Positions 1,013-1,153 of a DNA stretch of 40,294 bases are shown piece after piece. The stretch spans positions 1 to 40,294 of the forward strand of contig CANRFC010000027.1 in assembly GCA_947629795.1 (NCBI GenBank), read 5' to 3'. Position numbers and translations under genes: made by a program. The stretch comes from an uncultured Oscillospiraceae bacterium (GTDB lineage Bacteria > Bacillota > Clostridia > Oscillospirales > Oscillospiraceae). Below the pieces are notes generated by a model. It saw only the letters and a list, made by a program, of their open reading frames with translations. It was not told the DNA's origin and did not search any database. Position 1 is the first letter of the stretch; each line of letters starts with the position of its first letter.

Positions 1013-1074
1013 CTTGGGAGAGCGCTTGAATGGCATTCAAGAGGTCAGCGGTTCGATCCCGCTTATCTCCACCA
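1013..1074 (+). tRNA. tRNA-Ala(GGC) 3' fragment, 5' end missing (not a functional tRNA)
   Basis: The sequence matches a tRNA-Ala from the D-loop (TTGGGAGAGCGC) to the 3' ACCA. The anticodon arm is CTTGA, loop ATGGCAT with anticodon GGC, TCAAG; the variable region is AGGTC; the T arm is AGCGG, TTCGATC, CCGCT; the acceptor 3' strand is TATCTCC followed by ACCA. The 5' acceptor strand and the 5' half of the D arm are replaced by unrelated sequence ending CTATGACTTGGG, so no cloverleaf can form. A perfect hairpin follows immediately. A reverse-orientation copy with a nearly identical breakpoint lies at 39950-40008. Confidence 0.75.
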
Positions 1075-1111
1075 AAGGAAATGGACACCTGTAAAGGTGT
1101 CCATTTCCTTT
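1074..1111. terminator. Perfect 17-bp hairpin after the tRNA-Ala fragment
   Basis: AAAGGAAATGGACACCT (1074-1090), the loop GTAA, and its exact reverse complement (1095-1111) form a 17-bp stem with an A-rich 5' foot and T-rich 3' foot. It looks like a bidirectional intrinsic terminator between two converging tRNA-derived fragments. Confidence 0.6.
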
Positions 1112-1153
1112 GATAAGGTGAAGTCTGCCCGAACCGCTGACCTCTTGTATTCC
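1112..1153 (-). other. Degenerate tRNA-like 3' fragment, converging on the hairpin
   Basis: On the minus strand this reads ATTGGAATACAAGAGG, then TCAGCGGTTCG, then diverged sequence up to the hairpin at 1111. CAAGAGGTCAGCGGTTCG (reverse complement of 1130-1147) is an 18-base exact match to the tRNA-Ala fragment on the other side of the hairpin. The following 18 bases, where the T-loop and acceptor should be, do not match. A similar degenerate fragment (ATTGAAATACAAAAGG, AGCGGTTC) stands at the equivalent place in the right-hand composite at 39871-39912. Confidence 0.5.

Follow-up and report, generated by a model that had tools for sequence, protein, structure and literature searches.

The 40,294-bp window analysed here is a complete contig (C27), one of 83 in a 2.86-Mb draft genome. 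It carries two composites, each made up of a tRNA-Ala(GGC) 3' fragment, a hairpin and a degenerate inverted segment, and each is very probably the attR scar of an integrative element that uses a large serine recombinase (LSR) to split the D-arm of tRNA-Ala(GGC) at the dinucleotide AG, and that brings a replacement tRNA with it. The evidence consists of the junctions themselves, the symmetry of the attP sites, the recombinase genes beside them, foreign tRNA alleles in two genomes, one empty site, and the prevalence of the arrangement; the recombination itself, transcription, processing and host dependence are inferred from these sequences.

In the proposed mechanism, an LSR would recombine attP with an attB lying in the D-arm, at AG. 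The gene would be split and not rebuilt: attL would keep the host promoter and a 22-nt 5' half, and attR a 59-nt 3' half followed by its terminator. The element would bring a complete, seemingly promoterless tRNA-Ala(GGC), mostly 77–126 nt after the start of the 5' half; since elements appear to carry this copy of their own, the bacterium could survive the splitting of its gene. A single transcript from the host promoter would run through the 5' half and the attP arm into the replacement tRNA, which RNase P would then release. Because the replacement tRNA carries a new attB, a later element could enter it in turn, building up a ladder of 5' halves upstream and orphan 3' halves downstream.

The two composites

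The initial annotation had described both composites from the letters of the window, and all of their parts were located at both sites (Table 1). The tRNA-Ala parts are identical, as had been claimed: both are the last 59 nt of the gene, and both break at the same base of the D-arm, at GGGAG, which is preceded by CTATGACTT in the left copy and by CTATGAACC in the right. The two hairpins differ in sequence while each is self-complementary; the 3' halves have kept their own downstream sequences, hence the difference. The left composite had been ended at 1153 and in fact continues to 1224, taking in a GC-rich hairpin and then the tRNA 3' end once more; neither is recognisable at the right composite, where they have seemingly decayed.

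Table 1. Coordinates of the features assigned in the window, with the basis of each assignment.
Feature	Position	Strand	Basis or remark
Element remnant left of junction	71..943	-	C-5 DNA methylase 71-469 (Pfam PF00145); TrbL/VirB6-like 521-943 (PF19478)
attP arm (P) of left attR	996..1018	+	Position set by break; matches C46a and C29 at 13/23 each, C46c at 12, C46b at 10
Orphan 3' half of tRNA-Ala(GGC), left	1016..1074	+	Identical to C46:13777; probable crossover AG at 1019-1020, from relatives' break variants
Hairpin H1, probably terminator of split tRNA gene	1075..1110	+	16-bp stem; covariation over 9 homologous units
Degenerate inverted tRNA 3'-half segment, arm H2 of downstream unit	1131..1156	-	Recurs in G009, G001, G321, G285, G242, G353 and others
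GC-rich hairpin H3 of downstream unit	1175..1198	+	Fold and covariation comparison
Second, decayed tRNA-Ala 3' end closing unit	1200..1224	+	Unit length here 150
Degenerate inverted segment, right copy	39871..39896	+	Rest of unit not recognisable
Hairpin H1, right copy	39911..39949	-	Sequence
Orphan 3' half of tRNA-Ala(GGC), second locus	39950..40008	-	Identity to intact gene; Rfam tRNA 32 bits
attP arm (P) of right attR	40006..40028	-	21/23 match to arm beside C29:37034 5' half
Putative end of inserted element, cut by contig end	40029..40294	.	Suggested by the junction; no listed ORF of at least 80 aa

Both fragments are also identical to the 3' part of an intact gene elsewhere in the genome (C46:13777-13852); the draft yielded no other intact copy of this tRNA-Ala(GGC) sequence, and its other tRNA matches carry no anticodon calls. 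They are partial genes despite what the tools return: ARAGORN calls the left one as a tRNA, and the Rfam tRNA model scores the right one at 32, just above its cut-off of 29, and the left one at 28.7, below it. That orphan halves can pass as tRNA genes in both programs is a caution for annotation. Since the 3' half is the host gene's own, and what follows it belongs downstream of that gene, a composite is best read as an attR scar overlaid on a downstream unit.

A third orphan 3' half lies at C41:20207. Upstream of the intact C46 gene are three orphan 22-nt 5' halves (GGGGGTATAGCTCAGCTGGGAG), each running into a different sequence, and a fourth is at C29:37034, at the end of contig C29; the tally in this draft assembly is thus four orphan 5' halves to three orphan 3' halves. 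By their attP arms, the right window copy matches the C29 arm at 21 of 23 positions, and the C41 3' half matches the innermost C46 rung (C46c) at 18 of 23. For the left composite no single partner stands out: C46a and C29 tie at 13/23, and its arm fits a rung of another genome, G013, better (16). The window seems to hold two native tRNA-Ala loci, inverted and some 39 kb apart, that were hit by insertion; in the simplest layout they would face each other across the 39-kb segment, with their promoters on C46 and on C29.

The elements of this genome are incomplete in the assembly. Neither window copy has a recombinase in view, and no LSR lies beside the left composite, whose junction adjoins a DNA methylase gene and a short TrbL-like ORF; the element there is accordingly taken to be a remnant. 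Two other ORFs of the window lie at or near the composites. One (873-1178, minus strand) is antisense to the left tRNA fragment and encodes GGDKRDRTADLLNAIQALS, which we take to be a frequent database artefact of antisense tRNA-Ala. The other (38866-39732) encodes a BRO-N family protein, adjoins the right composite, and is possibly another mobile-element remnant.

Crossover site and symmetry of attP

Relatives have the same two types of junction. In one, a 5' half runs into an arm of attP; in the other, far downstream, the second arm leads into a 3' half. At right junctions the three bases preceding AG vary (GGG, AGG, GCG, GTG, GGT), and at left junctions it is the bases following AG that do so, which together place the crossover at AG. 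The attP sites of serine recombinases are symmetrical about a central dinucleotide, and such symmetry was found here: the two arms of one element are mirror images with AG as their centre, so that attP is an imperfect inverted repeat about the crossover dinucleotide.

Arm identity was scored in the seven genomes with a single unambiguous attL/attR pair (G002, G006, G010, G011, G019, G115, and G386). In register it averages 0.69, against 0.16–0.34 when the arms are slid by 1–4 bases, and the observed sum is reached by two of the 5,040 possible pairings, namely the true one and a swap of two identical left arms. With the addition of five pairs assigned by hand (three from this genome and two from G111, the G009 arm being left out), for a total of 12, the mean is still 0.69, and none of 20,000 random pairings reaches the sum. 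An earlier gapped scoring of the arms, which did not use the AG register, gave weaker contrasts. Related elements of different genomes can also have similar arms; for example, the right arm of G002 matches the C29 arm of this genome (18) better than the left arm of G002 itself (16).

Recombinase genes and element content

A gene with Resolvase (PF00239), Recombinase (PF07508) and zinc-ribbon (PF13408) domains lies at junctions on contig C41 of this genome and in G006, G009, G010 and G011, and adjoins the intact tRNA of G002; homologues occupy these two positions in G024 and G022 too. A three-domain LSR is thus found beside a junction in this genome and five relatives, and by homology in two more. 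In a set of 40 genomes that includes this one, all eight homologues at or above 46% identity lie next to a tRNA-Ala(GGC) att site, which defines a set of serine recombinases with one common, precisely mapped target. Along with the junctions and the attP symmetry, these adjoining genes bear out the suggestion of the initial annotation that elements enter here by tRNA-targeted recombination.

Three more distant homologues (39–43%) were found. One adjoins no tRNA-Ala; the other two adjoin tRNA-Ala(CGC), with a sequence resembling the 5' half ~80–100 nt upstream (G001:C17, as L294:1243-1396; and G044:C1, as L296, where the homologue is in two pieces). This suggests related elements targeting another alanine isoacceptor; strict patterns found a host 3' half for neither case.

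Two elements were annotated, by selected ORFs. The one in G010 spans ~47.5 kb between its junctions, has the recombinase at its right end, and carries genes for a MobA/VirD2-type relaxase, a VirD4/TraG coupling protein, a VirB4-like ATPase, ParB and others; relaxase, coupling protein and ATPase, the three components looked for in an integrative and conjugative element (ICE), are thus all present. The selected ORFs of the ~66-kb G002 element, in a search not exhaustive for relaxases, include a coupling protein, a VirB4-like protein and another recombinase that differs from the first. The attL pattern GGGGGTATAGCTCAGCTGGGAGCSC was absent from the viral contigs searched.

The replacement tRNA and an empty site

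The intact tRNA-Ala of an element lies just inside its left junction. In G010 this gene has the T-stem AGCGG/CCGCT, and the orphan 3' half at the far end has TGCGG/CCGCA, a form shared by a second G010 gene and by G007 and G008. A comparable difference is seen in G386, where the element tRNA has GAATGGCATTC and the orphan GACTGGCAGTC. The differing alleles indicate that in these two genomes the intact gene arrived with the element. In G002, G006, G011, G111 and G115 the two share one allele, which is uninformative as to origin.

An empty site in G007 could be compared with the element of G002. The right flank of the G002 element is 82% identical over 1,702 bp to the sequence downstream of the intact G007 tRNA-Ala, and its left flank is 83% identical over 104 bp to the G007 promoter region, up to the first base of the tRNA. 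Despite the matching promoters, the left gene neighbour is purH in G002 and another gene in G007; an asparaginase gene is in none of the compared loci. Across the junctions compared, the host tRNA is not rebuilt and a cognate tRNA is carried by the element. The one intact tRNA-Ala(GGC) copy in the draft of this genome stands next to a ladder. In G011 and G111 a further intact tRNA-Ala immediately precedes the first rung.

Promoter arrangement

Promoters were sought by a consensus-based scan, which would miss a non-consensus promoter. Among the matches listed, a strict sigma-70-type promoter precedes the first 5' half in 62 of 79 cases (shuffled sequences: 2.0), and occurs in the stretch formed by 5' half and spacer before the replacement tRNA in one of 85 (shuffled sequences: 0.8). 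In a smaller set the corresponding counts were 44/58 and 1/62; spacers there had scores resembling those of their shuffled versions (mean z 0.44, against 4.02), and none of the 62 contained a terminator before the replacement tRNA. Because the spacer is seemingly without a promoter while the host tRNA promoter still stands upstream, integration appears to connect the two, and the simplest reading is that the host promoter would drive the replacement tRNA through the 5' half. If this is correct, the promoterless design would couple rescue of the gene to correct integration, and it provides a testable rule for finding the ends of elements.

Prevalence and ladders

Exact orphan 5' halves, in runs of up to four, are found in 65 of 400 genomes of the family (41 of the 245 of good quality), in which the reversed control pattern has no matches. 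A scan of named genomes returned at least 118 stretches with orphan 5' halves; those listed include Flavonifractor plautii ATCC 29863, Oscillibacter sp. 1-3, Faecalibacterium gallinarum and Neglectibacter timonensis, and also, from another family, Lacrimispora xylanisolvens. Among the 118 locus-strands listed, 81 have their last 5' half followed by an intact tRNA-Ala at a distance of 77–425 nt (no more than 126 nt in 74), 28 are cut by the end of the sequence, and nine have no intact tRNA by the criterion used. This amounts to nine of the 90 listed locus-strands with enough sequence; in three of the nine, a 3' half with a diverged 5' part is at about the right place. In an earlier subset of 80 of the 118 listed loci, 56 had an intact tRNA, 18 were cut by an end, and six had none.

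In F. plautii ATCC 29863 (L244), two copies of attL plus intact tRNA-Ala stand in opposite orientation ~0.7 kb apart, with the same upstream sequence. These could be either a real inversion or an assembly artefact.

The ladders are read here as serial insertions, each into the tRNA of the element before. They could conceivably have arisen instead by tandem duplication or deletion after one insertion: the rungs of L. xylanisolvens and of G022 are nearly identical, and those of the former may be duplications, and the 59-nt direct repeats expected to flank an element would permit a deletion that leaves a scar. We consider this unlikely as the general explanation, however, as the rungs of this genome, G111 and G217 include some with clearly different attP arms, and as G111, with three rungs whose starts span 210 nt, also has 3' halves 40, 63 and 70 kb downstream, the last of them decayed. 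The arms in G111 did not confirm the order expected from nesting: the 40-kb junction scores 18 with the outermost rung and 14 with the innermost, and the 63-kb junction hardly separates rungs 2 and 3 (13 and 14). Read as serial insertions, ladders of 5' halves may provide an ordered insertion history in gut bacteria.

The downstream unit

The sequence following the 3' half in the left composite belongs to a unit of ~145 bp derived from the tRNA 3' end. A terminator-like hairpin opens the unit, followed by part of the tRNA 3' half in inverted orientation, a GC hairpin, and finally another copy of the tRNA 3' end. It occurs after intact tRNA-Ala genes in G228, G321, G353, G419 and G354, after split ones in G009, G242 and G285, and in tandem in G321, G308, G285 and G419. 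Unit lengths are 137–150 bp, with the exceptions of 253 bp in G354 and 110 bp for a decayed second unit in G285. One locus (L087, G419:C49) has three tandem 150-bp units, identical or nearly so, between the tRNA-Ala and an apparent native terminator. Two patterns derived from the unit match 10 and nine of the 400 genomes, counts in which not every match is a full unit.

The G285 unit is predicted to fold into a terminator hairpin and a three-way junction, which the tRNA 3' end closes by pairing with its inverted copy. When nine units were compared on this fold, 15 of 54 pairs had changed on both sides (shuffled sequences, 6.3, with none of 500 reaching the observed number; slid folds, 2 to 7). 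Twelve of these are in the first hairpin, out of the 17 pairs of that helix, and three in the GC hairpin. Covariation, which had been proposed as a test of the stems, is thus found in the first hairpin (H1); the inverted arm has no changes on both sides, and structure there is accordingly without covariation proof. By position and form, the hairpin after the 3' half looks like the terminator of the tRNA gene. Rfam at a lax threshold returned weak hairpin (mostly miRNA-type) and tmRNA matches, all below the gathering score. As for its origin, the unit could possibly be a gene-less integrative unit, or a product of template switching at the hairpin (palindrome formation) or of slippage; a simple inversion within the degenerate part was rejected as a full account, as the arrays show a regular unit.

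It is very doubtful that the complete composite is a single mobile or regulatory repeat. The hairpin and inverted part do recur as a unit with conserved structure, in places in tandem, but the same unit also follows intact tRNA genes, and in G002, G010, G011 and G006 the same tRNA break is followed by other downstream sequence, so that the break belongs to the recombinase site. The initial annotation had proposed a repeated tRNA-derived element; this holds for the downstream unit, which recurs after intact and split tRNA-Ala genes alike, and not for the tRNA fragment, which is the host's own 3' half. A dispersed family of three-part repeats was rejected: two composites were found in this genome, and in relatives the parts occur separately.

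Tandem repeats next to a tRNA gene have a precedent in the tyrT/rtT region of Escherichia coli, where 178-bp repeats contain the 3' end of tRNA-Tyr. As there, the units lie in tandem downstream of a tRNA gene and each ends in a copy of its 3' end; unlike the E. coli repeats, the unit here has a hairpin of its own that resembles a terminator, a tRNA-like arm in inverted orientation and a GC hairpin.

A broader reading, which we hold tentatively, is that a widespread serine-recombinase lineage (ICEs where annotated, in Oscillospiraceae and some Lachnospiraceae) might destroy the host tRNA-Ala and substitute a promoterless copy that only the host tRNA promoter can activate. Integration would then be both a survival switch and a one-way ratchet, in which each new element enters the tRNA of the previous one, the host ends up relying on a tRNA supplied by an element, and the ladder records past insertions in order. 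Independently of this, the ~145-bp unit at the tRNA 3' end, with its terminator and three-way junction, may itself be mobile, carrying no genes and having the same target.

Comparison with known systems

In the classical tRNA-gene island the tRNA is rebuilt at one junction; here both 5' and 3' halves are orphaned. That the window junctions come from ordinary tyrosine-integrase islands, with the tRNA rebuilt at one end and a displaced 3' end at the other, is scarcely credible: contig C41 of this genome does contain a tyrosine integrase, and tRNA-Ala 3' fragments starting at the anticodon arm in G036, G285 and G341 fit such a pattern, but the shared core here is a few bases, and the origin was rejected for both window junctions on the symmetry of attP about AG and on the serine recombinase that adjoins such sites. 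The fragments broken in the anticodon arm, noted at five loci (L093, G285:C99; L104, G114:C1; L091, G073:C1; L056, G036:C1; and L164, G341), look like displaced ends of tyrosine-integrase islands.

Islander genomic islands, in the passages describing them (PMC4383910), resemble the present elements in having a tRNA gene as target and a displaced fragment marking one end, and differ in their tyrosine integrases. The streptococcal serine-integrase ICEs have, in the parts of the account concerned, the protein genes rumA, mutT, traG and hsdM as targets (PMC4701971). Shared with them are an LSR with PF00239 and PF07508, and mostly PF13408, together with conjugation genes and very small direct repeats; unlike here, the passages concerned mention no replacement copy (PMC4701971). 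The word tRNA does not appear in the main text of a survey of large serine recombinases (PMC10083194), and a literature search, in which few subscription papers were covered, turned up no serine recombinase reported to split a tRNA gene while bringing a replacement.

The splitting of a tRNA gene by an element that supplies the cognate tRNA, with no rebuilding of the host copy, is what these elements have in common with the tRNA-dependent lysogeny of actinobacteriophages, a system that the relevant passages describe for phages with a tyrosine integrase (Guerrero-Bustamante and Hatfull, 2024; PMC10865867). Against that description, the present elements have a serine recombinase, conjugation genes (in the two annotated cases) and insertion ladders. 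The tRNA of phage Fionnbharth has its own promoter, shown by a reporter, although the passages on it do not give this as a defining feature (PMC10865867); here the tRNA by attL is apparently promoterless, as judged from the consensus scan of the listed matches given above. Given another class of enzyme, a seemingly different promoter arrangement and the conjugative nature of the two annotated elements, we do not count these elements as members of tRNA-dependent lysogeny as described. They are a serine-recombinase variant of tRNA-dependent integration, which was previously described for tyrosine-integrase phages; if this is true, a second enzyme class has come to the same solution to the breaking of an important target, a split tRNA gene with a replacement.
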